64,000 nucleotides of DNA from Balnearium lithotrophicum. Its GTDB lineage: Bacteria; Aquificota; Aquificia; Desulfurobacteriales; Desulfurobacteriaceae. The notes beneath the pieces were generated by a model, which worked only from the letters and a program-made list of their open reading frames with translations, ran no database searches and had not been told where the DNA came from. Position numbers and translations under genes: made by a program. Below are positions 1-64,000 of this stretch, piece after piece (positions within the stretch are counted from its first letter, which is position 1; each line of letters opens with the position of its first letter). Location: NCBI RefSeq assembly GCF_900182585.1, contig NZ_FXTM01000001.1, positions 1-64,000 of the forward strand, given 5' to 3'.

Positions 1-29
1 AGATTAAGCAAGATGTTGGGAGCTATGAG

Positions 30-54
30 AGAACAAAGAGCTTTTATATAGCTC
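30..54 (-). terminator. Possible weak terminator after the helicase gene
   Basis: Read on the minus strand, GAGCT (54-50) and AGCTC (42-38) can pair around an ATATAAA loop and are followed by TTTGTTCT. It lies about 70 bases past the helicase stop codon. The stem is only five pairs and the T tract is interrupted, so this is a weak candidate. The rest of the left edge (1-121) shows no gene. Confidence 0.2.
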
Positions 55-121
55 AGTTATTTGTTTTGACTAAGTTCTGTCTCTTTAACTTGTGGCTTCT
101 CCTTTTGGTCATATGGATTTT

Positions 122-2293: not shown

Positions 2294-2308
2294 CTTTTCA
2301 CTCCAAAT

Positions 2309-2337
2309 TTGAAATTTTCACTTTACGAATTTAAACT
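2309..2337 (+). promoter_or_regulatory. Sigma70-type promoter for murC-polA
   Basis: TTGAAA (2309-2314) and TAAACT (2332-2337) are separated by 17 bases. They sit in the divergent gap and would start transcription near 2344, just before the AAAGGAGGG ribosome site (2354-2362) of murC. Predicted by consensus only. Confidence 0.55.
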
Positions 2338-2366
2338 TTTGTAGAGTTTGGGCAAAGGAGGGAGTT

Positions 2367-3722
2367 TTGGTCATTCACATTGTAGGAATTGGCGGAATTG
2401 GAATGTCTGGAATTGCTCTCGTTCTAAAGTCAGAAGGGTATTCTGTTCAGGGTTCAGACATCAGAAGGAGCTCCATGGTGGACAAACTTGAGGAGAGTGG
2501 TATTAGGGTTTTTATAGGGCACAAAAAGGAAAATGTAATGGGTGCTGACATTGTCATTCACTCATCTGCCGTCAAAGAGGATAACCCCGAAATAGTTGCA
2601 GCGAGGGAGATGGGGATTCCCATTATTCCGAGGGCTGACGTCCTATCGGATTTAATGAAGCTGAAGGAGGGAATAGCCGTTGCCGGAACGCACGGAAAGA
2701 CTACAACAAGTTCTATGGTTTCAAAAATACTCTACGGTGCAGGACTAAAGCCGACAATTTTGGTTGGAGGAAAGCTCTCGTTTTTAGGAGGAGTAAATGC
2801 CCTGAAGGGAGAGGGAAACTGGATAGTTGCAGAGGCCGATGAGAGCGATGGAACGTTTTTGAGGTTAAATCCTACCTTTTCAGTAGTTACAAACATAGAT
2901 GCTGACCACTTAGACCACTACGGAAGTTTTGAAAACCTAAAGAGGGCCTTTTTAGATTTTGCAAACAGGGTTTCTTTCTACGGAAGGGTTTTTTTGTGTA
3001 CTGAGTGTCAGAACGTTAGGGAAATCGTTCCAAAGATTTACAAGAGAAAGGCAACTTACGGATTCAAGAATGCGGATTTCACAGCTGAAAACTTAACGTT
3101 TTTAAAGCTTGGAAGTCTTTTTGATGTGAAGTACAAGGGTGAAAAACTTGGAAGAGTTAAGCTCAACGTTCCTGGGAAACACAACGTTTTAAACGCATTG
3201 GGAGCTCTATCCGTTTCTTTAGAGGTAGGAGTTCCCTTTAGTGAGATTTCTGAAAACTTGGAGGAGTTTAGAAATGCAAGCAGGAGAATGGAACTCAAGG
3301 GAACTGTAGGAGGTGTTACGTTCATCGACGATTACGGCCACCACCCTACGGAGATTGAAGCATCCTACGAGGCTCTTAAAAACTCCTTTCCAGACAGGAG
3401 ATTGGTCGTCCTATTTCAGCCCCATAGGTACACGAGAACCGCTCTCCTGTGGAACGAATTTGTAAAAGTTTTAAGGGAAATAGACAACCTCTACATTTGC
3501 GATATATATTCTGCCGGTGAAGTTCCTATTCCAGACGTTTCCGCTGAAAAGTTAGCAAGGGAGTGTGGAGCTCTCTACTGTGGAAGTCTCGAGGATGCCT
3601 GTAGAACCCTGAGGAGGGAGCTAAAGCCCGGAGATGTGTTCTTATCCCTTGGTGCAGGTAGCGTAACGAATGCCTTTGAACTAATCACAGGAGAGGTTAA
3701 TGGAGAGAGTCTTTCTGTTTGA
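2367..3722 (+). CDS. murC: UDP-N-acetylmuramate--L-alanine ligase
   Basis: MurC adds the first amino acid of the peptidoglycan stem peptide to UDP-MurNAc in the cytoplasm, using ATP. The 451-aa length is normal. The N-terminal Rossmann-like domain starts HIVGIGGIGMSG. The ATP loop GTHGKTTTSSM is near residue 108, the central domain has VTNIDADHLDHY, and the C-terminal Mur ligase domain carries the DDYGHHPTEI motif. The start is TTG behind AAAGGAGGG. Its end overlaps the polA start by 23 bases, so the two are co-transcribed. No other mur gene lies nearby, so it is separated from any dcw cluster. Confidence 0.97.
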   Translation: MVIHIVGIGGIGMSGIALVLKSEGYSVQGSDIRRSSMVDKLEESGIRVFIGHKKENVMGADIVIHSSAVKEDNPEIVAAREMGIPIIPRADVLSDLMKLKEGIAVAGTHGKTTTSSMVSKILYGAGLKPTILVGGKLSFLGGVNALKGEGNWIVAEADESDGTFLRLNPTFSVVTNIDADHLDHYGSFENLKRAFLDFANRVSFYGRVFLCTECQNVREIVPKIYKRKATYGFKNADFTAENLTFLKLGSLFDVKYKGEKLGRVKLNVPGKHNVLNALGALSVSLEVGVPFSEISENLEEFRNASRRMELKGTVGGVTFIDDYGHHPTEIEASYEALKNSFPDRRLVVLFQPHRYTRTALLWNEFVKVLREIDNLYICDIYSAGEVPIPDVSAEKLARECGALYCGSLEDACRTLRRELKPGDVFLSLGAGSVTNAFELITGEVNGESLSV

Positions 3723-6210
3723 TGGGAGCAGTCTTGCATACAGGGCTTACTATGCCCTTAAAAATAAGGGATTTAAAACGACTAAGGGATTCCCTACAAC
3801 GGCGGTTTACGGGTTCATAAGGATATTTTTAAAGCTCCTGAAAGACTACAAACCTGAGTATTTGGCAGTTGTCTTCGATGCCGGAAAGAGAACATTTAGA
3901 ACAAAACTGATGAAAAGTTACAAGGCTAACAGGAAGCCAACTCCGGATGAGTTTAAAGTTCAGCTTCCATACATAAAGAGATTTTTAGAGTGTCTGGGAG
4001 TAAGGGTTTTAGAAAAGGAGGGTTACGAGGCTGACGACATTATAGGTACTCTTTCAAAAAAGTTTTCAAAGGAGGGAGCTCAGGTAGTAATTGTTACTCC
4101 AGACAAGGATATGAGGCAGTTGATAGATGAGAACACCGTTGTAGTAGCAATATCCAACAAAACTGGTAAATCAAAAACTTACGACCTCAAAACATTCAAG
4201 GAGGAGTACGGTATAGAGCCTGAGCAGATTCCCGATGTTTTTGGACTTTCTGGAGACACTATAGACAACATTCCAGGAGTTCCAGGAATCGGTGAGAAAA
4301 CAGCCCTTGACCTCATCAGGAAATTCGGCTCCCTTGAGAACATTTATCAAAATTTAGATAAATTGACTCCAAAGAGGAGGGAGCTCCTTGAGAAGTTCAA
4401 GGAGCAGGCATTTTTAAGCAGGGAACTTGCAAGAATAAAGACAGACGTTCCTTTAGACGTCACTATTAAAGACCTTAAATTGGAAAAGCCAAACGGAGAC
4501 TGTTTGAGGGAGCTCTTATCAGAGCTTGAAATGAGGAGCGTTGCAGTTGAACTTAAAAAGCTCTTTCCAGACCTTGACTTTGGAAAAGAGATTGAGAGAG
4601 GGAGGGAGCTCTCGGAAGAGGAGTTGGAAAGGTACTTATCAGTTGGAGATCTCTTTACCAGACCTTCAGTTACGGTAGTTCCAATTGATGGGAAATTCCT
4701 AATTTCTACCCCTAAGGGTTTTTTAAAAGTTGATAGAGAAAAAGCCCTTGAAATTGTAAAAAAGTCTGGGAAAATCTTTACCTACAACTTGAAGGAGCTC
4801 TACCACAGTTTAGGGGAAGAAATCTCTAAAAGGGATGTTGAAGACCTTTCTCTTCTATACTACTTAAAGAATCCACTTTTGAAAAACTACACACCTGAAA
4901 CCCTTCTTAAGGAGTTCTTGGAAAGTGTAGACCTTTCGCCGATTGAGGACTATATCCACTATACCTTTAACCTATTTGAAAAGCTCAACAGCGAGGTGAA
5001 AAAAAAGGGACTATCTGAAATTTATAAAAAGATGGAACTTCCCCTGTCCTACGTCCTTTACAAAATGGAAAAGAGGGGAGTCCTCTTTGATGTCAGTTAC
5101 TTGGAAAACCTTGGAGGTGAAATAGTTGATGAGACGGAGAGTTTAAAGGAGAAAATTTACGAAGAGGCCGGAGAGGTTTTTAATATAAACTCCCCGAAAC
5201 AGCTTTCCTACGTCCTATTTGAAAAATTGAAATTAAAGCCCCTTAAGAAGACAAAGTCTGGTTACTCAACGGACGTTGAAACCCTGACGACTTTAGCCCT
5301 TGAAGGAAGCAGAATAGCTGAGTATCTACTTGAATATAGGAAATTAACAAAGCTCTACGGAACTTTTGTTAAGGGAATACTCAAGCACGTTGGAGAGGAT
5401 GGAAGGGTTCACGGGAAGTTTCTCCAAACGGCAACGGCAACGGGAAGGCTCTCTTCCGTAGAACCTAACCTTCAGAACCTTCCGGCTTTCGATGAGTTTT
5501 CAAAGAAAGTGAGACAGGCCGTAACGTCTTCGGAAGGTTATACCCTTGTTTGGGCAGACTACTCTCAAATAGAGCTCAGAATTCTTGCTCACCTCTCCGG
5601 AGATGAAAAATTGATAGAGGCTTTTAGAACGGGAAGGGACATACATACAGAAACGGCAAGGTACCTTTTTGGAAAGGAAGAGATAGGCGAAGGAGAGAGG
5701 AGGATAGCGAAAACCGTTAACTTTGGAATCATCTACGGCATGAGTCCCCATGGCCTTTCTGAGAGGTTGGGAATACCAATAAAGGAGGCCGAAGAGTACA
5801 TAGAGAACTACTTCAACCAGTTCCCAAGGGTAAAGGAGTACATAGAGAGGACTCTGAAGGAAGCCTACGAGAAAGGTTACGTGAGGACACTTTTTGGAAG
5901 AATTAGACCCCTTCCAGAGTTAAAGGACAGGAGCTACCAGGTAAGGAGCTTTGGAGAGAGAGCTGCCGTAAATGCAATAATTCAGGGGACTGCGGCTGAC
6001 ATAATGAAGCTGGCTATGGTGGAACTTTACAGGAAATTGGAGGAAGAGGACAGTTACTTAATTTTACAGGTTCACGACGAAGTTGTGATTGAGGTTCCCG
6101 AGGAAAAAAAGGATAAGGTAGTTCAATTGGTAAAGGAAACTATGGAAAACTGTATAAATCTATCAGTTCCCCTCACGGCAAAGGTAGAATCTGGAAAGAG
6201 GTGGAGCTAA
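3700..6210 (+). CDS. polA: DNA polymerase I
   Basis: An 836-aa family A polymerase for repair and Okazaki-fragment processing. Residues 1 to about 290 form a complete 5'-3' nuclease domain (LFDGSSLAYRAYYAL, EADDIIGTL, TPDKDMRQL, SGDTIDNIPGVPGIGEKTA). The middle region, where a 3'-5' exonuclease should lie, lacks the usual DxE motif: the equivalent stretch reads VVPIDGKFL. Proofreading is therefore probably lost, as in Taq polymerase. The polymerase domain carries motif A (WADYSQIELR, near 616), the O-helix (RRIAKTVNFGIIYG, near 668) and motif C (VHDEV, near 790). The start is an ATG inside the 3' end of murC. Confidence 0.97.
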   Translation: MERVFLFDGSSLAYRAYYALKNKGFKTTKGFPTTAVYGFIRIFLKLLKDYKPEYLAVVFDAGKRTFRTKLMKSYKANRKPTPDEFKVQLPYIKRFLECLGVRVLEKEGYEADDIIGTLSKKFSKEGAQVVIVTPDKDMRQLIDENTVVVAISNKTGKSKTYDLKTFKEEYGIEPEQIPDVFGLSGDTIDNIPGVPGIGEKTALDLIRKFGSLENIYQNLDKLTPKRRELLEKFKEQAFLSRELARIKTDVPLDVTIKDLKLEKPNGDCLRELLSELEMRSVAVELKKLFPDLDFGKEIERGRELSEEELERYLSVGDLFTRPSVTVVPIDGKFLISTPKGFLKVDREKALEIVKKSGKIFTYNLKELYHSLGEEISKRDVEDLSLLYYLKNPLLKNYTPETLLKEFLESVDLSPIEDYIHYTFNLFEKLNSEVKKKGLSEIYKKMELPLSYVLYKMEKRGVLFDVSYLENLGGEIVDETESLKEKIYEEAGEVFNINSPKQLSYVLFEKLKLKPLKKTKSGYSTDVETLTTLALEGSRIAEYLLEYRKLTKLYGTFVKGILKHVGEDGRVHGKFLQTATATGRLSSVEPNLQNLPAFDEFSKKVRQAVTSSEGYTLVWADYSQIELRILAHLSGDEKLIEAFRTGRDIHTETARYLFGKEEIGEGERRIAKTVNFGIIYGMSPHGLSERLGIPIKEAEEYIENYFNQFPRVKEYIERTLKEAYEKGYVRTLFGRIRPLPELKDRSYQVRSFGERAAVNAIIQGTAADIMKLAMVELYRKLEEEDSYLILQVHDEVVIEVPEEKKDKVVQLVKETMENCINLSVPLTAKVESGKRWS

Positions 6211-6340
6211 ATCGATAGCAAAGAAACTGTATAAACATTTGCTCCATGTCTACATAGCAGAAAAGGGAAAAAAGGGTGATAGTTTTCTAGCTTTGAAAAT
6301 AGATATTTTTCACTTTTCCAGAAAAAATCAAAGCAATACT

Positions 6341-11388: not shown

Positions 11389-12540
11389 ATGGCTAAGCTT
11401 GAACTAAAGTATGGAAACCACGCCTGTGCAGAGGCTGCAATTTTAGCAGGTTGCAGATTTTACGCCGGCTATCCCATTACTCCATCCTCAGAGATTGCAG
11501 AGAGGATGGCAGAGCTCCTTCCAAAATACGGAGGAGCCTTTATCCAGATGGAGGATGAGATTGCCTCAATGGCAGCAATTGTCGGAGCATCATTTGCAGG
11601 TGCGAAAGCAATGACGGCAACCTCCGGACCGGGCTTTTCACTGAAGCAGGAGAACTTAGGTTATGCATTTATGACAGAAGCTCCCTGTGTAGTTGTTAAC
11701 GTCCAAAGGGGAGGCCCATCAACAGGTCTTCCAACACAGATTGGACAGCAGGAGATTATGCAGTCCCTATGGGGAACCCACGGCGACAAACTCATTCCGG
11801 TCTTCTATCCGGGGAACGTTCAGGAGATTATGGAGGAAACAATCAGAGCCTTCAACTGGGCCGAGAGGTTAAGGACTCCTGTTGTTCTCCTCCTCGATGA
11901 GGTCTTAGGCCACATGAGGGAAACTGTGGATATGGAGCTCTTTACTCCCGATAAAGTAGAAATCTGGAACAGAAAGATGCCCGAAGTTCCTCCCGAGGAA
12001 TACCTTCCTTACAAACCTGGAGAGGACGATGTTCCTGCAATTGCTCCCTACGGGACACCAGGTTACAGGGGACATGCAACGGGACTTCACCACGACTATA
12101 CAGGTTTTCCAACAACAAACCCGGAAATGTGTGAGGAGCTCATAGAGAGACTCATCAGAAAGGTCAAGAGAAATCAGCCCGAAATGGAGAAAAACGAAGA
12201 GTATAAGTTGGACGATGCCGAATTTGCAATTGTTGCCTTCGGAACAACGGCAAGGGCAGCCAAAACAGCTGTAGACATTGCAAGGGAAAAGGGAATTAAA
12301 GTTGGACTCTTAAGGGTTGTAACAATATGGCCATCCCCTGAGGAAACACTAAACAAGCTTGCAAAACAGGTCAATGCAATACTCGTTCCGGAGCTCAACA
12401 TGGGACAGTACGTATTAGAGGTTGAAAGGTGTTCCAAGGGAGAAGCTCCTGTTTACAGGCTAAACAGGGCAAACGGAAAGGTTATCTTCCCTTCAGAGAT
12501 TGTTGAAAGGATAGAGGAAATAGCAAAAGCTAAAGTTTAA
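11389..12540 (+). CDS. korA: 2-oxoglutarate:ferredoxin oxidoreductase, alpha subunit
   Basis: A 383-aa alpha subunit of the 2-oxoacid:ferredoxin oxidoreductase family. The N-terminal domain contains AGYPITPSSEIAE. The region QMEDEIASMAAIVGASFAGAKA and TSGPGFSLKQENLGYA is characteristic of the family. In an autotroph this enzyme carboxylates succinyl-CoA to 2-oxoglutarate using reduced ferredoxin. Substrate assignment is inferred mainly from the position directly after sucCD; a different 2-oxoacid cannot be excluded from sequence alone. Confidence 0.93.
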   Translation: MAKLELKYGNHACAEAAILAGCRFYAGYPITPSSEIAERMAELLPKYGGAFIQMEDEIASMAAIVGASFAGAKAMTATSGPGFSLKQENLGYAFMTEAPCVVVNVQRGGPSTGLPTQIGQQEIMQSLWGTHGDKLIPVFYPGNVQEIMEETIRAFNWAERLRTPVVLLLDEVLGHMRETVDMELFTPDKVEIWNRKMPEVPPEEYLPYKPGEDDVPAIAPYGTPGYRGHATGLHHDYTGFPTTNPEMCEELIERLIRKVKRNQPEMEKNEEYKLDDAEFAIVAFGTTARAAKTAVDIAREKGIKVGLLRVVTIWPSPEETLNKLAKQVNAILVPELNMGQYVLEVERCSKGEAPVYRLNRANGKVIFPSEIVERIEEIAKAKV

Positions 12541-15735: not shown

Positions 15736-17047
15736 AAAAGCAGCAGGGTTAATCGAAAAGTTGGGAGTTGAAAACTACGATATTTATGCTGTGGAGGGTA
15801 TAGGAACTTCTGTAGAGGTTAAGGAGAGAGAGGTAAACAGAATAAAGAGCTCGATAACAAAGGGCTTAGCCATCAGACTTGTGTCAGAGGGAAGGTTAGG
15901 GTTTGCCTATACGAACGATGTTTCCGACGATGGAGTTAGAATAGCGATTGAGTGTGCTAAGGAAAATGCAAAAATATCGGAGCCGGATGAGTACGCTTTT
16001 TCTATGCCCCAGAAGAGTGAATTGGACTTTCCCCTCTTTGATGAAACCTTTGATGAAATACCCATAGAAAAAAAGATTGAAATTGCGAAACAGTTAGAGG
16101 AGGAGGCACTAAGTTACAGCAGCAAGATTAAAAGGGTAAGGAAAGCCTCCTATTCAGACTCTAAGGGAACTGTTTACTACTACAACTCAAACGAGAACTC
16201 CTTTTCCTATACAACTTCAAACTTTTCATTGAGCATCCTGTTGGCTGCTGAGGAGGATGGGAGCTCCCAAATGGGTTGGGATTACCAGTCAAGCAGGTTC
16301 TTCCAAAATCTCAATCCCAAACTTGTAGCTGTAACGGCAGGTAGTAGCGCTGTTGAGCTCCTTGGAGCAAAACCAATAAAGACAAAGAGGGTTCCCGTAA
16401 TATTTAAAAATACGGTCTTTGCAGAGCTGATAAGCACCCTCTCTTCGGCATTCTTGGGAAACAACGTTTTAAGGGGAAAGTCCCTATTCAAGGACAGGTT
16501 GGGCTACGAGGTTGCAAGCCACGTACTAACGGTTTACGATGACCCACTAAACTTGGATGGAGCTGGAAGTTGCCCGTACGACGATGAAGGAGTAGCTACG
16601 AAGAAAAAGGCAGTTATAGAGAGGGGAGTTTTGAAGAACTTCCTGGTTGACATGTACTCTGCTAAAAAGTTGGGACTAAAGCCTACGGGAAATGGAATAA
16701 GGAGCTCGATATCATCTCTACCTACATCGGGAGTTACAAACTTGGTTGTTGAGAGGGGAGCTCTCAACCTCCAGGAGTTGGTTAAAACACCAAAAGAGGT
16801 TATTTTAGTTACGGATGCAATGGGTCTCCATACAATTAATCCAATTTCTGGAGAGTTCTCAATCGGCATAAGTGGAATTTACTTTGTTGATGGTGAAAGG
16901 GTAACTCCTGTTACAGGGATGACAGTTGCGGGAAATGTTAAAGAGCTCCTCAGTGGAATAACTGAGGTTGGTGCCGACCAGAAGTGGCTTGGAAACGTTT
17001 GTTCACCTTCTGTTTTAGTAAAAGAACTAACGGTTAGTGGAGAGTAA
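15719..17047 (+). CDS. pmbA: TldE/PmbA-like metalloprotease partner subunit
   Basis: A 442-aa member of the TldD/PmbA family. TldD-TldE heterodimers are cytoplasmic peptidases that process small peptides. As expected for the TldE partner, the family's zinc-binding HExxxH motif is absent. Family stretches such as SCPYDDEGVATKKK and GANxNRSSISSLPTSG-like GNGIRSSISSLPTSG are present. The catalytic TldD homologue lies separately at 33.9 kb in this window. The ATG lies within the thyX end, with GGAGG upstream. Confidence 0.92.
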   Translation: MFKIIEKAAGLIEKLGVENYDIYAVEGIGTSVEVKEREVNRIKSSITKGLAIRLVSEGRLGFAYTNDVSDDGVRIAIECAKENAKISEPDEYAFSMPQKSELDFPLFDETFDEIPIEKKIEIAKQLEEEALSYSSKIKRVRKASYSDSKGTVYYYNSNENSFSYTTSNFSLSILLAAEEDGSSQMGWDYQSSRFFQNLNPKLVAVTAGSSAVELLGAKPIKTKRVPVIFKNTVFAELISTLSSAFLGNNVLRGKSLFKDRLGYEVASHVLTVYDDPLNLDGAGSCPYDDEGVATKKKAVIERGVLKNFLVDMYSAKKLGLKPTGNGIRSSISSLPTSGVTNLVVERGALNLQELVKTPKEVILVTDAMGLHTINPISGEFSIGISGIYFVDGERVTPVTGMTVAGNVKELLSGITEVGADQKWLGNVCSPSVLVKELTVSGE

Positions 17048-40838: not shown

Positions 40839-40839
40839 A

Positions 40840-43621: not shown

Positions 43622-43632
43622 TCCCTCCCTCC

Positions 43633-44148
43633 TTAATCGGAAAAACAAAATGTATAGTAGGCACACTTCTTACAGTAAGGTAACTTCTTCACTGGTGGTG
43701 GTTTAGGCGAGGAAAGTATATTTTTAATGTCTTTCAAAATTTCTATCATTTGTTTTCTTATACTGTCAGTTAGTTCAATAAATTCCCTCTTTCTTTGTCT
43801 TGGATAGTTAATTATTCCCTTCTTCTTTATACCAAATTGTTCCAAGTAAAAGAGATAATAGTAAAGTTGCCAGCGGTCAGCCTCTTCCATCTTTCTTGAA
43901 TATTTGATTTCTCTAATATTTCCTCCAGAAACAATATCAATAGAAATTAAATTGTCGATAATAATGTCCCTTTTTGCATCTGAAGGATATGCTGTATCAT
44001 GGAGAAGTTTTCCTAAAGTTATTTTCTCTGAGTTCTCCTCTAACTGAATTCCCCTATCAAAGAGCCACAGTTTCCTCTTACATACAAAGTAGTAATTAAC
44101 TTTAATTCCATTCGTTCTAAGTTCATCAAAATCCACCTGACCTATCAA
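43633..44148 (-). CDS. cas4: CRISPR-associated exonuclease Cas4
   Basis: A 171-aa RecB-like nuclease. One Cys of the iron-sulphur site is near residue 23 (YYFVCKRKLW) and the other three are C-terminal (CKKCAYYTFC). Nuclease residues include the D in IDNLISIDIVSG and the EIKYS motif. Cas4 trims and selects prespacers for Cas1-Cas2. It overlaps the cas3 end by four bases. Confidence 0.95.
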   Translation of the reverse strand: MIGQVDFDELRTNGIKVNYYFVCKRKLWLFDRGIQLEENSEKITLGKLLHDTAYPSDAKRDIIIDNLISIDIVSGGNIREIKYSRKMEEADRWQLYYYLFYLEQFGIKKKGIINYPRQRKREFIELTDSIRKQMIEILKDIKNILSSPKPPPVKKLPYCKKCAYYTFCFSD

Positions 44149-46412
44149 ATAATTTCTCCAAAATTGGGTTCTGTACTTGTATCTAATCCAAGTTCGCTAT
44201 CATAATCAAAGTCAACAGTGAGAATTTCCTTCCCGAATTTACCAGAAACAATTTGAGTTGGAATGACTTGTTTTAATTTATAAATAGGCATACTTAATGT
44301 AAACTTATTTACATTATAAATTGCTCTAAGCCTTTCAAGATGATTTCTTGTTTTATCCAGTACAATCTCTATTGCTTTTTGTATTTCATCAAAATTCTCA
44401 TCGTAAACTTTTTTCGGTATAACGTTTACATTCAAGATTTCTCTAAAAAGTTTCTGAGCATCTCTTTTCGTATCAGCTTCAAATCCTGCATCCAATAATT
44501 CCATATTTTCAGTAAATTTCTTATAAAAGCTTGTATTTGATATTTTTCTAATATCATAAACACTCATCATCAAATCCTGCTTTTTATCATCAGTTAAGAT
44601 TTGACAATTAAACTCTCTTAAAGCTTCTAATGTGAAATTTACAATTTCTTTGTTATAAATCTTTCCCTTATCTGAAGGCTCTTGCGTAGCGATTACAACA
44701 TTAGGCTCGCTATCTTCATTAATAACTCTCCCTTGTTTCCTATAAACTCTCCCCATTCTCTGGATTATAGAATCTAAAGAAGATATCTCTGTAAACAGAA
44801 CGTCGTAATCTATATCTAAGGAGGCTTCCACAAGCTGAGTTGAAATCCACACAATAGGCTTATCAGGAATTTTTATCTGCTTCTCCTTCTCTATTCTATC
44901 CTTTTGAATGAAAAGAGAATGTAAAAGCTTAACATTAACATCCTTATTTTCGCTTAAACGCTTAAAGAGTTCTTGAGCTTTTCTTACGGTATTTGTAATT
45001 ACCAAAACTTTCTTACCTCTATTAAACTGAGAAACGATTTCACTTAAAAGTTCTTCTATTGACCTGTCTTCCAGTTTGATTTTATGCTTCTTTTCGGGAT
45101 TAAAAACCGGTTCTAATTCCTCAGCGTAATCTTTCAAATATTCATTAATAAAGGGATGGATTGTTGCACTCATAAAGCAGAATTTTCCGCCGTAAATAGC
45201 TATTTCTTGAAGTCCCTTTATTATCACTGCAAGGGTATCTGGCGAATAACTCTGCGGTTCGTCCAACACTATTTTTGAATACATTAAAGTAGCATAAATC
45301 CTTTCGTATCCCGGATATTTAAAAACAGCCGTAAATAGCTGATCAGCCGTTGTTACAGTAATTGCCATGGAAAATTGCCTTGCAGCTTGAGTTCTTACAA
45401 TGTGTTCTTCTATAGAAAGCGAATCTTCTATTTCTTCACTTTTCCCCATTCCATAAAACAGAGCATCACTATGCAAAAGCCCTATTTTTTCCTGTTCTCC
45501 TTTAAAAACACTGATGAGCCTGTCATACATGGCATTAACAGAAACTCTAACAGGAAGAGTATAAAAAGCTTTATCCCCTCCAATCCAGTTAATAGCAAAT
45601 TCTGTTTTCCCTACACCTGTCGAAGCAGTGAGTAATACGCTCTTATTTCTTAAATCTTTTGCTTTTTTCTGAAATGGTTTCAAATCTCTAAAATTACTCT
45701 TCTTGGAAAGATAGGATATCAGTTTTTCTTCAAGGTTACAGATTTTTCCTTCCTCAACAGGCAAATGTGCCGATGCTGAATAGTCTAATCTATGGAGAAT
45801 TCCTTTCAGTAAGATAAAAATTCTATTCCTTTTAATATTTTTCACCTTATTAGAGGAGTTGAAGTAGTAATTTTGCAACTTTTTATAAAGGATTCCTGCT
45901 TTATCTGTGAGCACAGACGATATGGAAAATCCATATTTTTTTAACCAATTCAAATCATATATTTTGTTCTTTATATCCAGCTCAATAACTTTCCGAAAAT
46001 ATTCCGGCGAGAAATCTAAGTTTCTATTGTGATGAAATAAGACGGAAAAAAGAACATAATCAAAATATCCTTTAGGAATAGTCCTTTTTATTTCAGGAGC
46101 GTACAAAAATATACCTGAAAGGTAATTATGAGGAATTTCTTTATTCAAAGCTCGAGGAATTCTTGCAGTTTCATTCAAATATTTTCTTATCTTTCTCTGA
46201 AAATGAGAAGAAACTTTACCTAAATCATGAAATAGACAAGCAATTTTTAAAGCATTCCAGAAATCTTCATTAACTCCAGAATTTTTTAAATCTTCTCCGT
46301 ATATTTCCCTTATTCTTTCCAGTTCCCTTAAGAGATTCTCCGTATGCTCTTCTAAAGTTTCCGGAACCGCTTTGTTTTTATCAAAGTAAATTTTTGCATA
46401 AACATTTCCCAT
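44145..46412 (-). CDS. cas3: CRISPR-associated helicase-nuclease Cas3
   Basis: A 755-aa fused HD nuclease and SF2 helicase that degrades DNA recognised by Cascade. HD residues: EHTENLL, LFHDLGKVSSHF and FHHNRN in the first 150 residues. Helicase motifs: TASTGVGKTEFA (Walker A), VLDEPQSYSPD (motif II, DEPQ), MSATIHP, and QRMGRVYRKQGR (motif VI). All key residues look intact. It starts one base after the MNT-like gene fragment. Confidence 0.95.
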   Translation of the reverse strand: MGNVYAKIYFDKNKAVPETLEEHTENLLRELERIREIYGEDLKNSGVNEDFWNALKIACLFHDLGKVSSHFQRKIRKYLNETARIPRALNKEIPHNYLSGIFLYAPEIKRTIPKGYFDYVLFSVLFHHNRNLDFSPEYFRKVIELDIKNKIYDLNWLKKYGFSISSVLTDKAGILYKKLQNYYFNSSNKVKNIKRNRIFILLKGILHRLDYSASAHLPVEEGKICNLEEKLISYLSKKSNFRDLKPFQKKAKDLRNKSVLLTASTGVGKTEFAINWIGGDKAFYTLPVRVSVNAMYDRLISVFKGEQEKIGLLHSDALFYGMGKSEEIEDSLSIEEHIVRTQAARQFSMAITVTTADQLFTAVFKYPGYERIYATLMYSKIVLDEPQSYSPDTLAVIIKGLQEIAIYGGKFCFMSATIHPFINEYLKDYAEELEPVFNPEKKHKIKLEDRSIEELLSEIVSQFNRGKKVLVITNTVRKAQELFKRLSENKDVNVKLLHSLFIQKDRIEKEKQIKIPDKPIVWISTQLVEASLDIDYDVLFTEISSLDSIIQRMGRVYRKQGRVINEDSEPNVVIATQEPSDKGKIYNKEIVNFTLEALREFNCQILTDDKKQDLMMSVYDIRKISNTSFYKKFTENMELLDAGFEADTKRDAQKLFREILNVNVIPKKVYDENFDEIQKAIEIVLDKTRNHLERLRAIYNVNKFTLSMPIYKLKQVIPTQIVSGKFGKEILTVDFDYDSELGLDTSTEPNFGEII

Positions 46413-46413
46413 T

Positions 46414-46783
46414 CTAAATACTCTTCTTTATTTCGTCTAAAGGATTTTTCATAGCTTTGTTATAAATAAGAACACTCAAATTTCTATCTTCCAATATCAA
46501 AAGCCATTCATCCTCATCATTATCAATTTTTCTCAATGTCTTTAAATTATTAAGTTTTCTCTTTATTCTCATCAATTGCATATCTAACAACTCTTCTTTT
46601 ACTGTTTCAACTGCTGTATCTAAAATCTGAAAAATAAGTTGCTTTTCTAGTTGCAAAAGAGCCAAAGATAGAAAATTTAAAAGGAATTTTTATGTTTTTC
46701 CATAAAATTTTCACTTTATATTTAATCAAATCTTGAATTTCAGGATATTTATAGTTTAACTGTTGCACAATCTCGTTACACAT
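46414..46783 (-). pseudogene. Frameshifted MNT-type nucleotidyltransferase gene inside the cas operon
   Basis: Two overlapping frames together make one gene. The first (ATG at 46783, GGAGA upstream, overlapping the cas5 end) encodes a helical lead and FSIFGSFATRKATYFSDF, then runs to a TGA at 46607. Moving by one base within TTTTA (46625-46621) continues as DTAVETVKEELLDM to the stop at 46414. The joined protein (about 122 aa) has an exact GSx10DxD signature, GSFATRKATYFSDFD, typical of minimal nucleotidyltransferases. The shift may be a disabling mutation, a slippage site or a sequencing error. Its position between cas5 and cas3 is not standard. Confidence 0.7.
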
Positions 46784-47507
46784 TAACGTCTCCAACTAAA
46801 TCAATAATCCTGCTATCCTCTCTATCAAAAAGGAGCTCCCCGTCCTCTATAAGAGCGTCATCAATGTAAACCACTTCCCTTTTTTCAAAATATCTAAGAC
46901 CAGTTTTTTCCAGTAACTCCTTGTTATATTTAAAATTCATCCTATAATTTATGCCTGCAATTCCCAAACTCTGGGCTGTTTCCTTATTCAAATAAATACC
47001 GTAATCAATATCGTGTTCATCTTCGGAAAAATCCCTAATTTCAGGTTCAATAAAATCTATATGATCAATCCTGACTAAATCTTCTTTCCTTCCGAGAGAA
47101 GGATACTCATTCTTTAGAACGTTTTCCTTAAACAACTTTAAGTATTTTTCATCTGCATGAATGTATATATTTAAACTAACATCGTAAATATTAGCCACAT
47201 AAGTTGGAGACTTTGAGAATGATTTATTAAATCCTTCCAAAAACGGATATCCTTTTTCTTTAACTCTTGATTTCCTATCAAACTTCACAAGCATCTGCAA
47301 ATCATAAACAACAGATGAAAATTTCCCCTGTATGCTCACAGCCATAGGGATATACTCGCTTGCACCAATCACAGTATGAAACCAACCCCTAACGGTAGAT
47401 AGAGGAGGTAGGGGATAACTGTCCCAGAAATTAAAACTCATAGGTTTTCTATAGTTTGCAAAAGCTTGATAGGCCTTTATTTTAAGAAGTTTCACTTTTA
47501 ACTCCAT
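46776..47507 (-). CDS. cas5: CRISPR Cascade subunit Cas5 (type I-B, Cas5t-like)
   Basis: A 243-aa RAMP protein that caps the 5' handle of crRNA in Cascade. The N-terminus (KLLKIKAYQAFANYRKPMSF, YPLPPLSTVRGWFHTVIGA) matches the Cas5 family. It overlaps cas7 upstream by 26 bases and the MNT-like gene downstream by 8. Confidence 0.92.
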   Translation of the reverse strand: MELKVKLLKIKAYQAFANYRKPMSFNFWDSYPLPPLSTVRGWFHTVIGASEYIPMAVSIQGKFSSVVYDLQMLVKFDRKSRVKEKGYPFLEGFNKSFSKSPTYVANIYDVSLNIYIHADEKYLKLFKENVLKNEYPSLGRKEDLVRIDHIDFIEPEIRDFSEDEHDIDYGIYLNKETAQSLGIAGINYRMNFKYNKELLEKTGLRYFEKREVVYIDDALIEDGELLFDREDSRIIDLVGDVNV

Positions 47508-48420
47508 AGTATTGATTTACTTGATTTTTTAGAGTTTCAAAGAAATCATTAACATTAAGAACCTTTTCAGGCAAAAGTTCCTTTATTTCTTCTTCATTTT
47601 CCCAGTATCCATCCACAATACCTATGTAAGAATTATCCTTAACTTTCTTTCCGTTAAAACTCATATCAAGAACTGACGAAATAATTGATGTTTCCAAAAG
47701 ATATTTCCTCATTTCACGATTATATCTTACCTTCAATCTTCCCAAGAAAAACGGATTTTTAACATTGTAAACTCCTCCAATGGAGAAGAGAGGATTCAAA
47801 TTCTCCATCCTACCCTTAATATTTCTGTTTAACACCTTCAATACATCTAAAACCATATTAACTCTTCTTGCCTTTTCGGAAGGTTCAAGTGAGATATTAT
47901 CATTCGGATCTTCTCCAACCCTATCTAACTCTATCGTGACTGTATAGGAATACAGAGATAAGTGATGCTCAAATTGAAACGGATTCGGAGTAGTTCCTGC
48001 TCTTTGAGCAAATTTTAAATTTATTCCGAATTCTACATCTAAGAACATAGGTTCAAGGGATATAGCGGGCGTTATTCTTACGACTGCAGGACGTGTTAAA
48101 GCTCCCCGGTCTTTTTCTGTTTTCATATAACCAAATAAGTCAGCCTCTACGTAGTCTTTTATATTGGCTTCAGGTTTAAACTGAACAACATCTTGCTCTG
48201 CCGTTAAAGGCTCTTCCTTACCGCTATCCACGGAAAACAATTCCTTCAACATTCTGTAGATATCGTATCTAATCGCCTGTCTTGATTCGTACGACAAAAG
48301 TTCGCCTGAACGGGAAAGCTTTTTAAGTTCTGAGATATTTCCTACTCCCTCTCCATAGTTCAAACTCATAGCCTCAAAGATTACTGAAACCGTTAACCCC
48401 TTTGGTTGTAAGTTAACCAT
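47482..48420 (-). CDS. cas7: CRISPR Cascade backbone subunit Cas7 (Cst2/DevR family)
   Basis: A 312-aa Cas7 protein, the repeated backbone unit that coats the crRNA spacer. Typical stretches are LTVSVIFEAMSLNYGEG, YESRQAIRYDIYRML and the FGINLKFAQRAGTTPNPFQFEHHLSLYSYTVTIELDRVG core. The Cst2 subgroup is inferred from these and from the adjacent Cst1-like Cas8. It overlaps both neighbours. Confidence 0.93.
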   Translation of the reverse strand: MVNLQPKGLTVSVIFEAMSLNYGEGVGNISELKKLSRSGELLSYESRQAIRYDIYRMLKELFSVDSGKEEPLTAEQDVVQFKPEANIKDYVEADLFGYMKTEKDRGALTRPAVVRITPAISLEPMFLDVEFGINLKFAQRAGTTPNPFQFEHHLSLYSYTVTIELDRVGEDPNDNISLEPSEKARRVNMVLDVLKVLNRNIKGRMENLNPLFSIGGVYNVKNPFFLGRLKVRYNREMRKYLLETSIISSVLDMSFNGKKVKDNSYIGIVDGYWENEEEIKELLPEKVLNVNDFFETLKNQVNQYYGVKSETS

Positions 48421-50113
48421 TGCTTGTTACCTCCTCTCCAAGTAATCCGTTTAAAAAACTGTATCCGATACAGTAAAAATTCTCCTTATTTTGCAAAGTC
48501 TTAACAAAAGAAGAGGGAATCTCTTCACCATAAGCCATATAAGTCCTAAGCAAAACATCCATAAACTGTGAAGTGTTTCCTATTCTAAGAGAATTTAAAA
48601 GCTTGTAGGAAATTGACTGTATTTTGTTTTCCGCATTTTTATTTCTTAGAAGCTCTGCAAGTTTTCTACCTTCGTCATAAACGTCCCACATTTCTTTTTT
48701 CGACACGCTCATCTTTTTATCCCCTATTTCGTTAATAAACTTTGAAATAACTAGAGTTAAAAGTTGAAGCCTATACGGATTTATATTTGTTTCGTAATTT
48801 CTTGAACCACCCTGATAAGCCATGAATATTTTTGCAATCTTATTCAAGTAATCAAAATAAAGTTTATTTTCTAAAAACAAATGGATAACTTCTAGAAGAA
48901 TCGAAATTTTCGTATCTTTTATTTTGTAATAACTCTTAGAAAACTGTTCTAGAATCTCTTTATTTTTTTGTTCCCTTAAGAACTCTGCTTTTTCTCTTGA
49001 TAAATTAAAGGAATAAACCTTTGGAATTGTTTCATTATTCAAGTCAAGTTCTAAAACGGCAATATTTTGAAGAGTAAAACGAGCCTTCTCATAAGATGCT
49101 TTTAAAACAAGTTGAGTAAAGAAATCTAAAAGAACATTCTGCGTTAAATTCGGATTCAATACTTTCATTAGTAACCTGTTTTCACTAACTAAATCAACAA
49201 CAGAACTGTCTGAATTAACAAAATAGAAAATCTTTCGTCCATCTTTTTGAACAGGAGTCAGACCTGCAAAATAAGAAAAATAGATAATTTCACAGATTTC
49301 GCATAAAGGAAGTTTGGGAACAAAGTTCCATACAAAGTTTACAGAGTCTGGATTGAGACCATAGAACTTAGAAATTCCAGTGTCAAATACCGTATTCTTT
49401 TTTGCTTTTCTTTCCATACATGATATACATATGAACTTTTTGTCTTTTTTTACTTTGTTTTGTCTTAGGGGTTCCTCAAAATCTGTATAAAACTTTTTAA
49501 ATATGTCTTTATTCACACTAAGATTCAAGAAACTTTTTTGACCGTAGATATTCCTTAGATAAATCTGAACATCCGTTTCCCAAAATTCTTTCTTGTCTCT
49601 TTCTAATATTTCTATAGCTTTCCGAAGAATATTTATTAAAAGATCTATATCCTTTCTTATTTTATTTTTTGAAGGAAGCTTCCCCAATTTGTTTTTTAAC
49701 AGTTTAAATCCCTGAAGTATCTTCTTAAATCTATCAAAAATCTCAACTAAAACTTTTTGAGAAGTTTCATTATTCTGAACTCTACTACGAAAGTACTTTC
49801 TATTTAAATAATCTAAATTTCTTTCAGCTTTCAGATATTCTAAATCGCTAACATATTCCTTAAAAAGCTTTATCAAATTTTCATACCTACCATACTGATT
49901 AAAAGCGTAATTAAAAAACTTCTCAGAAAACCCTTCAAAGATTTTTCTATCAAACTCTATGTAGTTATCTCCGAACCTTAGCAAACTCTCGTCTTTTGAA
50001 ATAAGTTCCTGATTATCTCCAACAGTTCTTAATTTCCACAAATGGGAATTTATATTTAAAAAACCGAGAATTCCTGCATTATAAAGCCAATCTCCGAGAT
50101 ATACTCTTTCCAT
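48413..50113 (-). CDS. cas8: CRISPR Cascade large subunit Cas8 (Cst1-type, CXXC-CXXC)
   Basis: A 566-aa large subunit expected to recognise the PAM. The N-terminus VYLGDWLYNAGILGFLNI and two zinc-ribbon pairs, CISC (about residue 225) and CEIC (about 267), fit the Cst1 CXXC-CXXC family of type I-B (Tneap) systems. Between them lies KNTVFDTGISKFYGLNPDSVNFVWNF. It is Lys-rich and AT-rich. It overlaps cas6 by one base. Confidence 0.9.
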   Translation of the reverse strand: MERVYLGDWLYNAGILGFLNINSHLWKLRTVGDNQELISKDESLLRFGDNYIEFDRKIFEGFSEKFFNYAFNQYGRYENLIKLFKEYVSDLEYLKAERNLDYLNRKYFRSRVQNNETSQKVLVEIFDRFKKILQGFKLLKNKLGKLPSKNKIRKDIDLLINILRKAIEILERDKKEFWETDVQIYLRNIYGQKSFLNLSVNKDIFKKFYTDFEEPLRQNKVKKDKKFICISCMERKAKKNTVFDTGISKFYGLNPDSVNFVWNFVPKLPLCEICEIIYFSYFAGLTPVQKDGRKIFYFVNSDSSVVDLVSENRLLMKVLNPNLTQNVLLDFFTQLVLKASYEKARFTLQNIAVLELDLNNETIPKVYSFNLSREKAEFLREQKNKEILEQFSKSYYKIKDTKISILLEVIHLFLENKLYFDYLNKIAKIFMAYQGGSRNYETNINPYRLQLLTLVISKFINEIGDKKMSVSKKEMWDVYDEGRKLAELLRNKNAENKIQSISYKLLNSLRIGNTSQFMDVLLRTYMAYGEEIPSSFVKTLQNKENFYCIGYSFLNGLLGEEVTSNG

Positions 50114-50934
50114 TACTTTACCTCTACCATTCCAAATCCCTGTCCTGTTCTGTTTCCAATACCTATCTTAACGATGTAATTAATATCTTCCGGATGACCT
50201 TGAAGCTGGAAAATCCCTCTATTTCCTGTTAAAGTCATAAATGGAATGCCCGTTTTCTCCCTAAATTCTTTCAGAGTATGTTTTACCTTTTGAACACTCA
50301 TTTTTATTTCTTTAAAGGAAAGAGGCTCTCTTAAACCGTACCCTCTTAAAGTAGAAAGAATCTTATTCATTGTGAAGTTAAGTTCCTTTTCAAAATTGTC
50401 ATCTGTAAATAAAATTGGTTTCTTCTTTCCATTTATGTTTTTCTCAATTAGAATCGGAGAACAGGTTTTCAAGGTAACTGTTCTTTTGGTTACCAACCTA
50501 TCGTTAACAGGAGCTATCCTCTTTATTTTCCAGTTTATTTTTTCTCCATTTACTAACATTGTGTCATCCGTACTAAATCTGAACGTCTCTAAATTTCTAA
50601 GGCCGTTGTACAGGGAAATTATGAACCGATAGTCAGCTGAACTTATCCATAAGCTTAAAAATGAGTTTTCTGGAAGGTAGAAGGTTTCTACGTTTTGGAG
50701 CTCCCTAAATTTCTCTGGAGTAAATTGACTGTCTATCTGTAAAGGTTCTTTTCTTATAGTGAAGCCCTGAGGAAAGGACAGGTTGAATGTAAAGGCTTTA
50801 GGAACGCACGAATCGTAGAGAGAATGTTTGTATTCTAAGTCCGATAATTTTAAAGCCTCTTTAAATAAAGAAACAATTCTATGTCTATAAATTATTGGAA
50901 CCTTTGATGTATGAATCAAGATTTTAATCTTCAC
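50113..50934 (-). CDS. cas6: CRISPR pre-crRNA endonuclease Cas6
   Basis: A 273-aa double-RRM RNase that cuts repeats. The C-terminal Gly-rich loop GIGNRTGQGFGMVEV is diagnostic; a probable catalytic His is near the N-terminus (IYRHRIVSLF). GTG start behind AAGAGGAAAG. It is the first gene of the cas operon. Confidence 0.94.
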   Translation of the reverse strand: MKIKILIHTSKVPIIYRHRIVSLFKEALKLSDLEYKHSLYDSCVPKAFTFNLSFPQGFTIRKEPLQIDSQFTPEKFRELQNVETFYLPENSFLSLWISSADYRFIISLYNGLRNLETFRFSTDDTMLVNGEKINWKIKRIAPVNDRLVTKRTVTLKTCSPILIEKNINGKKKPILFTDDNFEKELNFTMNKILSTLRGYGLREPLSFKEIKMSVQKVKHTLKEFREKTGIPFMTLTGNRGIFQLQGHPEDINYIVKIGIGNRTGQGFGMVEVK

Positions 50935-57050: not shown

Positions 57051-59122
<2,072 letters not shown>

Positions 59123-59126
<4 letters not shown>

Positions 59127-60466: not shown

Positions 60467-61094
60467 CGGACCAGCAGGTGCAGGAAAGAGTACTGTTGCA
60501 AAGGAGATTGCAAAGAGGTTTGGCTACGTTCACCTTGATTCTGGAGCTCTCTACAGGGCTATTGGTTACTTCTGCAAGTTAAAGGGAGTTAATCTAACAA
60601 AAAAGGAAGAAGTTTTGGGGGCCATAAAAAACATAAATGTTGAGCTTTTACCAAATGGAAGAGTTCTGCTAAACGGAAAGGATGTAACGAAAGAAATAAG
60701 AACACCTGAGGGAGGAGTTCTTGCATCTCAGGTTGCTCAGTTCCCGGAGGTTAGGGAGTTCGTTGTTAAGCTCTTGAGGGAAATGGCTGTCGGAAAAAAG
60801 ATTGTTATAGACGGAAGGGATGCAGGAACGTACATATTCCCAGAGGCCGACCTGAAAATCTACCTAACAGCCTTCCCTGAGGAGAGGGCAAGAAGGAGGT
60901 ATAAGGAACTAAAGGAGAAGGGATTTAACGTGACCTTTGAGGAAGTTTTAAAGGAAGTCATAGAGAGGGATAAAAAGGACGAAAGCAGGGAGTTTGCTCC
61001 CCTAAAAGTTCCGGAGGGAGCGGTTATTGTTGATACAACGGGAAAAAGTTTAGAGGAAGTTTTAAAAACAATATCAAATTTAATCAATAATTAA
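60438..61094 (+). CDS. cmk: Cytidylate kinase
   Basis: A 218-aa CMP/dCMP kinase. The P-loop is [30 protein letters not shown] and VIDGRDAGTYIFPEADLKIYLTA are diagnostic. TTG start behind AGAGGAGGAAG, within the pncB 3' end. The usual partner genes (rpsA, ispH) are not adjacent. Confidence 0.95.
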   Translation: MKEPKIITIDGPAGAGKSTVAKEIAKRFGYVHLDSGALYRAIGYFCKLKGVNLTKKEEVLGAIKNINVELLPNGRVLLNGKDVTKEIRTPEGGVLASQVAQFPEVREFVVKLLREMAVGKKIVIDGRDAGTYIFPEADLKIYLTAFPEERARRRYKELKEKGFNVTFEEVLKEVIERDKKDESREFAPLKVPEGAVIVDTTGKSLEEVLKTISNLINN

Positions 61095-61111
61095 GTTTAG
61101 GAAACAATTCA

Positions 61112-64000
61112 ATGAACGATTTAACGTTTTTTACAAACGAAAAGGGAAGAAGATTAATAGACAGGTTTAAAACACTATTTAAAGATACAAAAGAATTAGA
61201 CATTATCGTCGGTTACTTTTACCTATCCGGCCTTTATGAGCTTCAAGATGAACTTGAAAAGGTTGATAGAATAAGAATCATTGTTGGAATGCAGGTTGGA
61301 AAAGAGGTATTTAATCTATTAGAAAGGGCAAAAAATATATCTGATTTAAAAGAAGAGTACCTTAATAATGTAGTGGTAGAACTCTCAAGCGGAGAATACG
61401 AGGATTTCCCCGAAAGAGAGAGGGCAATAAGGAAGTTTATCGACTGGATAAGAGAAGGAAAATTGGAAATAAGGTACTATCCCCATTCCCCTTTACATGC
61501 CAAGGTCTACATATTCAAGAGCAGAACCGGGATAGACTTAGGAAGAGTCATAACAGGTTCTTCAAACTTTACCTTTTCAGGGCTTAAGGAAAATTTGGAG
61601 TTTAACGTAGAACTAAAAAATCGGGCAGATGTTGAATTTGCAATAGACAGGTTTGAATCCCTCTGGAGAGAGTCTGTTGAAATTTCTGAGGAAGTTGTTA
61701 AAACAGTTAGGGAAAAAACGTGGCTCAACGATACGATTTCCCCCTACGAACTCTACTTAAAGTTCCTCTACGAGTTTCTCTACGACCAGATTGACTACGA
61801 TAAGAAGGATGAATTTCTCTTCCTTCCACCCGGGTTTAAAAAGCTTCAGTACCAGTTGGAGGCTGTTGTTGATGCCGAGTCAAAACTCAAAAGGTACGGA
61901 GGAGTTTTCCTTTCAGACGTTGTAGGGCTTGGAAAAACAGTAATTGCAGCTATGCTTACAGCAAAACTTCGGAAGAAGGTTTTGGTCTTTTCACCGCCTC
62001 ACCTAATTGATTACTGGGAAGATGTACTGAGGGAATTTAGAGTTCCGGCAAAGGTAATCTCCTCAGGACGTCTATCAAGGCTTTCCCCGAAGGAATTTGA
62101 GGATTATCCCGTTGTTATTGTTGATGAGGCCCACAGGTTTAGAAACGAGGATACCCAAAGCTATAAAAACTTACACTCAATATGTCAGGGTAAGGAGGTT
62201 ATCCTCTTAACAGCTACGCCTTACAACAACAGACCTTCCGATATAAAGAGCCAGCTTTTACTCTTTCAGGAGAGGTACAGTTCAAACATACCGGGAGTTA
62301 CAAACCTTGAGGACTTTTTCTCCCAGTTGGAGAGGAGAATAAAGGAGGTTGATAGAAAAAAAGACCCGAAGAGATTTAAAGAAGTTCTAAAGGAGTGCGG
62401 AAAAGAAATCAGGAGTAAAATCCTGACGTATGTCATGGTAAGGAGGACAAGAAAAGAGGTAGAGAAGTACTTTAAGGAGGATTTAAAAACGCAAAAAGTT
62501 TCCTTTCCAAGGATTAATCCTCCGAAAAGAATTTACTACCTACTTGATAGAGAATTAGAAAAACTCTACGATGAAACGATAGAGACGATTAAAGACCTAT
62601 CCTATGCAAGGTACAGACCTGCCCTTTACCTAAAGAAAAAACTTAAGAGTAACGACCCGGAACTCCTTTCACAGATGAACCTCTCCGGCCTCATGAAAAC
62701 GCTCCTTTTAAAGAGGTTAGAGAGCAGTTTTGAAGCGTTCAAGAGGAGTTTAGATAGATTTTTGGACTCCCACGAAAAGTTTTTAAGAATGTTTGAGGAG
62801 AAGGGAAAGGTTTACGTTAGTAAGGAAGTTGATGTATACCAGCTTTTAGACGAGGATAACCTTGAAGAGCTCTTAGAACTTGTAGAGAAAGGAAAGGTTA
62901 AGGAGTATAAAAAGGAGGAGCTCTCAAAAGAGTTTGAAGAAAACCTAAGGTCTGACACGGAAAAAATAAGGCTTTTAAGGAACAGGTGGTATGGAATAGA
63001 AAAGGACCCCAAGTTGGAGGAGTTCCTTAAACTCCTGAAGAAGGATTCCGTTCTCAAAAATTCCAAAAAGCTCCTCATCTTTACAGAGTCGTCAGAAACT
63101 GCAGATTACGTTGGAGAAAAGCTAAAGGAAACATTTGGAGATTGTGTTCTAATTTACTCGTCAAAGTCAAAATCCTCACTAAGGGAAGAGATAATTTCTA
63201 ACTTTGACCCAAATGCAAAGAGGAAGGAAGACAACATTAGATTTCTCGTAACCACCGATGTTCTGGCAGAGGGAATAAACCTCCACCGTTCAAACGTTAT
63301 AGTCAACTACGATATTCCCTGGAATCCGACGAGGGTTTTACAGAGGGTAGGGAGAATCAACAGAGTAGGAACAGAGTTTAAGGAAATTTACATCTACAAC
63401 TTTTTCCCCGTAGGAGCAACTGAAAAGGAAATAGGTCTTGAAGCTGCAGCTGTGGCAAAACTGCAAGCGTTCCATGAAGCCTTAGGGGAGGATGCAAAGT
63501 ACCTAACAGAGGAAGAGGAAGTAGATGCCCACGGTCTGTTTGAGAGGATTAACACTATAGAGGAGGATGAGGAGGAATCTTTCCTGAAATACGTGAAGCT
63601 TTTGAGGAAAATTAGGGAAGAGGAGCCGGAGCTCTTTGAGAGAATAAAGAAACTACCTAAAAAGGCTCGCTCAGGGAGGAGATTTAAGAGGGAGTTCCTG
63701 ATAACCCTATTTAAAAAGGGAAAACTTAAAAAGATTTACATATCCTACAGGGATAGGGAACCTCAGGAGATAGACTTTTTAAAAGCAGTGGAGCTCTTAG
63801 AAACGGAACCATCGGAAAAAAGAGTGAAGATTCCAGATACCGTTTACTACGAACTTTTAAATAAAAACAGGAAAGCCTTTGAGAAATCCCTTGAGAGGGA
63901 AAGGGAAAAGTCAAGGAGCAGAAAGAGCTTTTCAAGGACTGAGAAAAATTTGATTAATAGTTTAAGAGCTCTAAAAAGTTCACTCAAGAATTCCTCAGAA
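61112..64000 (+). CDS. PLD-nuclease/SNF2 helicase fusion, incomplete at the right edge
   Basis: An open frame from ATG 61112 through the window end (963 codons, no stop). The N-terminal PLD-like domain has HAKVYIFKS (near 129) and GSSNFT (near 149), a single HKD-like motif. The SNF2 helicase follows: DVVGLGKT (Walker A, near 269), VDEAHRF (near 338), LTATPYNN (near 367), and LVTTDVLAEGINLHRSNVIVNYDIPW with RVGRINR (near 745). Such fusions occur in restriction-like and other antiphage loci, often beside a methyltransferase, which would lie beyond the window. GAGCTC motifs are frequent, so it looks host-adapted. Confidence 0.9.
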   Translation, partial: MNDLTFFTNEKGRRLIDRFKTLFKDTKELDIIVGYFYLSGLYELQDELEKVDRIRIIVGMQVGKEVFNLLERAKNISDLKEEYLNNVVVELSSGEYEDFPERERAIRKFIDWIREGKLEIRYYPHSPLHAKVYIFKSRTGIDLGRVITGSSNFTFSGLKENLEFNVELKNRADVEFAIDRFESLWRESVEISEEVVKTVREKTWLNDTISPYELYLKFLYEFLYDQIDYDKKDEFLFLPPGFKKLQYQLEAVVDAESKLKRYGGVFLSDVVGLGKTVIAAMLTAKLRKKVLVFSPPHLIDYWEDVLREFRVPAKVISSGRLSRLSPKEFEDYPVVIVDEAHRFRNEDTQSYKNLHSICQGKEVILLTATPYNNRPSDIKSQLLLFQERYSSNIPGVTNLEDFFSQLERRIKEVDRKKDPKRFKEVLKECGKEIRSKILTYVMVRRTRKEVEKYFKEDLKTQKVSFPRINPPKRIYYLLDRELEKLYDETIETIKDLSYARYRPALYLKKKLKSNDPELLSQMNLSGLMKTLLLKRLESSFEAFKRSLDRFLDSHEKFLRMFEEKGKVYVSKEVDVYQLLDEDNLEELLELVEKGKVKEYKKEELSKEFEENLRSDTEKIRLLRNRWYGIEKDPKLEEFLKLLKKDSVLKNSKKLLIFTESSETADYVGEKLKETFGDCVLIYSSKSKSSLREEIISNFDPNAKRKEDNIRFLVTTDVLAEGINLHRSNVIVNYDIPWNPTRVLQRVGRINRVGTEFKEIYIYNFFPVGATEKEIGLEAAAVAKLQAFHEALGEDAKYLTEEEEVDAHGLFERINTIEEDEEESFLKYVKLLRKIREEEPELFERIKKLPKKARSGRRFKREFLITLFKKGKLKKIYISYRDREPQEIDFLKAVELLETEPSEKRVKIPDTVYYELLNKNRKAFEKSLEREREKSRSRKSFSRTEKNLINSLRALKSSLKNSSE

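Follow-up and report, generated by a model that had tools for sequence, protein, structure and literature searches.

The 64-kb window analysed here, the whole stretch from position 1 to 64,000 of contig NZ_FXTM01000001.1 of Balnearium lithotrophicum, is densely marked by the palindrome GAGCTC, with 91 copies against 8.9 expected from base composition. Of these 91, 79 extend to RGAGCTCY (R = A/G, Y = C/T), a motif that several Desulfurobacteriaceae genera carry and that belongs to the class of highly iterated palindromes (HIPs). The genes encoded in the window and the named relatives of its PolA (Desulfurobacteriaceae bacterium, Thermovibrio sp. and Desulfurobacterium sp.) put the genome in this family. 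The original prediction, made from the window's letters, had noticed both the recurrence and the extension of most copies to the octamer; both are real, the recurrence more strongly so than it supposed. Two copies lie in a murC-like open reading frame (ORF, 2367–3722): GGAGCTCC at 2467–2474, read AGG-AGC-TCC (frame offset 1), and GGAGCTCT at 3567–3574, read GGA-GCT-CTC (frame offset 0). Another GGAGCTCC, at 4380–4387 in a DNA polymerase I-like ORF (3700–6210), carries its core as GAG-CTC (frame offset 2), and these three cited frames match the window ORFs. The five examples singled out by eye thus comprise four full sites, the fourth being GGAGCTCT at 16757–16764, and one that falls short: at 12391–12396 the context GGAGCTCA provides the core without the 3′ Y, a flank class with little enrichment (observed over expected, O/E, 1.43).

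The 79 octamers of the window start at 475, 763, 967, 1678, 1984, 2467, 3201, 3567, 4380, 4509, 4605, 4794, 7078, 10582, 11110, 11511, 11934, 12794, 13717, 14507, 15600, 16260, 16757, 16942, 18270, 18520, 21154, 21893, 22545, 23152, 25559, 26001, 26174, 27337, 27992, 29864, 29936, 30038, 31172, 31360, 32019, 32356, 32649, 34447, 34544, 35370, 37020, 37584, 37694, 40218, 41193, 41763, 43216, 46832, 50697, 51461, 52026, 52617, 54123, 54705, 54732, 54920, 55490, 55844, 57760, 57825, 57871, 58456, 58814, 59230, 59905, 60017, 60322, 60543, 62866, 62917, 63628, 63790 and 63965, in agreement with a whole-genome motif search. That search returned 2142 copies in 1.73 Mb (49 contigs), or 1.24 per kb, compared with 45 of the reversed control YCTCGAGR. 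Density is uneven along the genome, foreign islands being poor in the motif, among them a block of genes in the window for CRISPR-Cas (clustered regularly interspaced short palindromic repeats and associated proteins).

Genome-wide analysis drew on 1.55 Mb, pieced together from stretches that amount to 89.8% of the genome, the other ~10% including parts of small contigs, with uncurated longest ORFs as gene calls. As a null model we shuffled synonymous codons within each gene, preserving both the protein and the gene's codon usage. Against this codon-aware null, set beforehand as the refuting test, the motif survives: a 464-kb sample holds 528 copies where 80.0 ± 7.9 are expected (z 56). Nor is enrichment confined to one frame, the sample giving 186, 35 and 307 copies in the three frames (33, 3 and 44 expected) and the full 1.55 Mb giving 734, 151 and 1014 (124, 12.6 and 153 expected). 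These correspond to 5.9-, 12- and 6.6-fold by frame and 6.6-fold overall, with a similar gain in odds, about 13–20, in each frame. Noncoding DNA (75.6 kb) is enriched 11-fold, with 50 copies where dinucleotide content predicts 4.5; there YGAGCTCR occurs once and mixed flanks twice. The shuffle and the noncoding counts reject a dipeptide or codon preference, and together with the three frames and the occupancy described below they strongly bear out the earlier proposal of a palindrome of the HIP1 kind that arises at the DNA level and owes nothing to dipeptide preference. That codon, dipeptide or oligonucleotide composition alone produces the motif, without any dedicated process, is the reading to which we give least credence, close to none: words containing AGCT or GAGC are indeed mildly enriched in general, but no other palindromic hexamer of this genome exceeds 1.95-fold, and the motif is absent from relatives with orthologous proteins.

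Over the same 1.55 Mb, the four R…Y octamers are enriched 4.7- to 9.05-fold, whereas the other twelve GAGCTC flanks are not enriched (O/E 0.11 to 1.53); AGAGCTCC and its complement GGAGCTCT are both raised, 5.3- and 7.1-fold. From these flank classes and the noncoding counts, the recognised unit is therefore a duplex of exactly 8 bp with symmetric R/Y ends; the motif acts at the DNA level and all eight base pairs are required, both outer letters included. Copies are nearly equal on the two strands and uniformly placed within genes. Single-mismatch neighbours are neither enriched nor depleted overall (O/E 1.07), with 0.50 and 1.11 for the outer position and up to 1.54 for inner positions 2 and 4. 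Recognition of GWGCWC, as in the Calothrix case (PMC4390886), was considered and rejected: GTGCAC (0.17) and GAGCAC (0.55) are scarce, but AAGCAC and TAGCAC are equally avoided. The genome shows strong avoidance of many six-base palindromes and of the tetramers GATC and CTAG; the latter two are almost eliminated from coding sequence (147 observed versus 3716 expected and 205 versus 2818, synonymous shuffle, 1.55 Mb), and the genome has no D12-family methyltransferase (PF02086).

We defined occupancy as the share of positions synonymously able to spell RGAGCTCY that actually do so. It reaches 1900 of 3587 in B. lithotrophicum (53%; 75, 27 and 50% by frame) and 11 of 589 (1.9%) in G009, a relative without the motif of which 420 kb was analysed. 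Orthologous genes of the two genomes form 295 pairs (mean identity 70%, fourfold-site identity 0.37); of the 155 shared positions that B. lithotrophicum fills in them, G009 fills 6. Motif-bearing relatives fill ~70% of shared positions, near the expectation from independent high occupancy; because site conservation between relatives is thus mostly high occupancy alone, the constraint looks global and not tied to particular sites.

Gaps between copies are near exponential (Poisson; coefficient of variation 1.19), and a search of them for a helical phase of 10–11 bp or regular spacing found neither. In a first pass over all sites, occupancy was reduced at long distances from other copies and, slightly, in their immediate vicinity. 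Within native neighbourhoods, occupancy runs without trend between 0.44 and 0.63 as the number of further copies lying within 1 kb goes from 0 to 6, and in no frame is there a significant difference between sites <100 bp and sites >400 bp from a neighbour. Saturation at about one copy per kilobase is thereby rejected. The filling of a site is independent of other copies nearby, which argues against functions for which one copy per kilobase suffices. One such function is a DNA uptake signal, whereby competent cells would prefer fragments carrying RGAGCTCY and so spread it. Its density and its scarcity in foreign DNA resemble those of uptake sequences, and two pilin-like genes, at a syntenic spot without counterpart in the 420 kb of G009, point weakly the same way; but one copy per fragment should suffice, and closely spaced extras are as frequent as isolated copies. 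The symmetric R/Y degeneracy points instead to duplex recognition, and single-mismatch forms lack the over-representation that they show in uptake sequences (PMC1939737). We regard this explanation as very improbable. The spacing, the neighbour-blind occupancy and the unenriched near-matches likewise speak against the segregation signal that the original prediction had listed beside uptake, in so far as either depends on density.

Foreign DNA is nearly empty of the motif. Contig C25 (L246, 16.7 kb), identical to the IMG/VR viral contig UViG_2724679708_000002 and prophage-like in encoding contractile-tail proteins (read by eye), occupies 1 of 28 permitted sites, and the related viral contig L305 has no RGAGCTCY copy. 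C25 avoids GATC (2 versus 52 expected) and CTAG (0 versus 59), like its host. In the window, the CRISPR-Cas gene block on the minus strand (42641–50934) is AT-rich and poor in the motif, and its stretch 44144–50113 (minus strand), almost devoid of copies, fills 1 of 12 permitted sites; the cas genes were assigned by eye from ORF translations. We read the block as later-acquired DNA. Occupancy marks foreign DNA sharply, and the simplest reading of this emptiness is that occupancy builds up slowly.

Among Desulfurobacteriaceae genera, RGAGCTCY is high in g1, g4 and g6, intermediate in g3 and at background in g2, g5 and g7. Clearly motif-bearing relatives hold about 510 to 1950 copies per million bases, and the weak genomes G012 and G017 fewer. 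In GyrB trees the motif-bearing genera are interleaved with motif-less ones, and a single clade of motif-bearing genomes is rejected (approximately unbiased test, p-AU 0.014; one gene, many weak branches); repeated gain and repeated loss of the motif are both possible. The ratio of RGAGCTCY to YGAGCTCR is only a rough control: it is high in motif-bearing genomes (60 in B. lithotrophicum, G000), but it varies among motif-less ones as well and is just 3.4 in G013. Genera that are close relatives but differ in carrying the motif provide a natural presence/absence experiment for the responsible gene. Outside the family, G076 (Aquificota, family code f4) has 1783 copies in 1.2 Mb and counts are also raised in G072–G074 of f4, possibly an independent case. 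The reversed control YCTCGAGR is frequent in G013 (310), G006 (135) and G054 (875), and there may be another, CTCGAG-type enrichment in G006, G013 and several f4 genomes. In samples of at most 20 kb per relative, TCGA is nearly absent (O/E 0.00–0.03, dinucleotide expectation) from G001, G004, G008, G009, G010, G015, G018, G019 and G020; in the B. lithotrophicum sample its O/E is about 0.47. Among the papers searched, none named GAGCTC with Desulfurobacterium or linked Thermovibrio to an over-represented palindrome.

The original prediction had also raised modification as a role, and a methylation-dependent HIP of the kind proposed for cyanobacteria would explain the palindromic form and the density, which lies within the cyanobacterial HIP range (PMC4390886). 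None of the five DNA methyltransferase families searched, however, is common to the motif-bearing genomes. Cytosine-5 enzymes (PF00145) are missing from the genus of B. lithotrophicum and from G010, and N6/N4 enzymes (PF01555) from G002; D12 enzymes (PF02086), searched in G000–G013, are missing from G002 and G013 and scattered elsewhere. Strong matches to type I HsdM (PF02384) and type IIG (PF07669) are scattered over G000–G021; every genome also has weak matches, which by their length resemble housekeeping methyltransferases. Clustering the candidates from these five families, beyond which further classes are possible, gave no group common to motif-bearing genomes. The model also predicts saturation, but occupancy ignores neighbours within 1 kb; we consider it improbable, and modification as a signal is disfavoured. 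The SacI-endonuclease family PF09566 has no member in B. lithotrophicum or in any motif-bearing genome. Its one match within the family Desulfurobacteriaceae, a weak one, is in motif-less G006, where the matching gene comes next after a D12 methyltransferase gene at 180–2235 of locus L303 (C7). Synteny comparison against the 420 kb of G009 yielded 21 candidate genes, among which no obvious DNA-repair or DNA-binding protein appeared except a toxin–antitoxin-like pair, in a comparison that covered about one quarter of the candidate space.

With neither a shared methyltransferase nor saturation near one copy per kilobase, what remains is therefore a factor acting independently at each site. The explanation we favour, tentatively and at somewhat below an even chance, is that a sequence-specific, methylation-independent factor imposes the HIP-class motif site by site through a local repair or retention bias. 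More doubtful is the stronger form of this idea, in which a repair or protection factor imprints RGAGCTCY singly, as a cell-encoded molecular drive that overwrites synonymous positions until about half of the permitted sites are filled. Such a factor would be chromosomally encoded, probably a homodimer reading the duplex without need for DNA methylation, and would act locally at each site. Whenever a mismatch left one strand reading RGAGCTCY, it would restore or protect that strand, so that copies would be lost more slowly and gained copies kept. Under the resulting mutation-limited ratchet, old DNA would fill up while recently arrived foreign DNA, such as the prophage and the CRISPR-Cas block, stayed empty; gain and loss of the factor between genera would let the motif pool build up or decay. 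We count in favour of local repair bias the site-by-site action, the exact 8-bp recognition, the similar gain in odds in the three frames, the near-saturation of permitted sites compared with G009, the slow filling, the lack of a methyltransferase cluster common to motif-bearing genomes, the patchy distribution and the absence of a tie to particular places. The repair role suggested originally is, as a local, site-by-site bias, the slightly favoured reading.

Several points weigh against it. The mechanism is deduced from the motif pattern, which picks out no protein. The single-mismatch neighbours are not depleted, which excludes recent massive conversion though not an equilibrium, and in G013 a 76.6-kb contig has at least 51 copies, a density close to that elsewhere in G013, so a small replicon can carry the motif too. 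Additive selection, moreover, predicts almost the same pattern: each copy would confer a small, independent benefit, with a scaled advantage of about 2.5–3 per site, for instance as a binding site for an abundant nucleoid-associated protein that folds or stabilizes DNA in a heat-loving host. Independence of sites, an effect of comparable size in every frame and outside coding sequence, the uniform placement of copies along genes and foreign DNA not yet filled all agree with this. It needs, though, selection at about 2000 sites simultaneously; the outer letters are all-or-none, with no credit for a one-sided R or Y, which is sharper than usual for nucleoid proteins, and the spacing is not periodic. 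We hold additive selection to be possible but rather unlikely, and place local repair bias slightly ahead because recognition is all-or-none and filling looks mutation-limited.

To our knowledge, no consensus on what the HIP1 palindrome of cyanobacteria does has emerged since the 1990s, the leading idea being a link to DNA methylation; selection on HIP1 was reportedly studied by Xu and colleagues in 2018. Chi sites are asymmetric and oriented. Like Chi, RGAGCTCY is an over-represented, octamer-scale motif of the host chromosome; unlike Chi, which RecBCD or AddAB recognises, it is a strict palindrome with symmetric degeneracy. Relative to avoidance of type II restriction sites, visible in the many depleted palindromes of the same genome, GAGCTC goes in the opposite direction. 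The uptake sequences of Pasteurellaceae and Neisseriaceae (PMC1939737) share with it a short motif, a density of about 1 per kb and scarcity in foreign DNA, but are longer, are not such palindromes and have over-represented single-mismatch forms.

The closest likeness is to the HIP class, of roughly 500–2500 copies per million bases (PMC4390886), within which RGAGCTCY falls as a genome-wide over-represented palindrome at 1240 per million. Like HIP1 (GCGATCGC) and the alternate cyanobacterial HIPs, it occurs genome-wide at about 1000–2000 copies per million bases, is patchy between related genomes, with wholesale loss or gain, and lets foreign genes stand out, as oligomer content does in cyanobacteria (PMC3497702). 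Unlike HIP1, it is a new sequence with degenerate ends and 50–75% GC in another phylum; given the different sequence and the Desulfurobacteriaceae host, common descent with HIP1 is not supported. In cyanobacteria, every genome with a HIP is reported to encode a methyltransferase capable of modifying it (Elhai 2015, PMC4390886), and the model there has the methyltransferase-marked motif direct mismatch repair within ~1 kb, copies accumulating up to about one per kb; one-off HIP sequences are biased toward the first and last letters (PMC4390886). RGAGCTCY differs on all three counts: no cognate methyltransferase is shared, nothing indicates saturation near one per kilobase, and one-off variants are not concentrated at the outer position. 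Because it shows neither a shared methyltransferase nor dependence on local density, this HIP-class motif, from a phylum far from the cyanobacteria, detaches the phenomenon from methylation as well as from models of one copy per kilobase.

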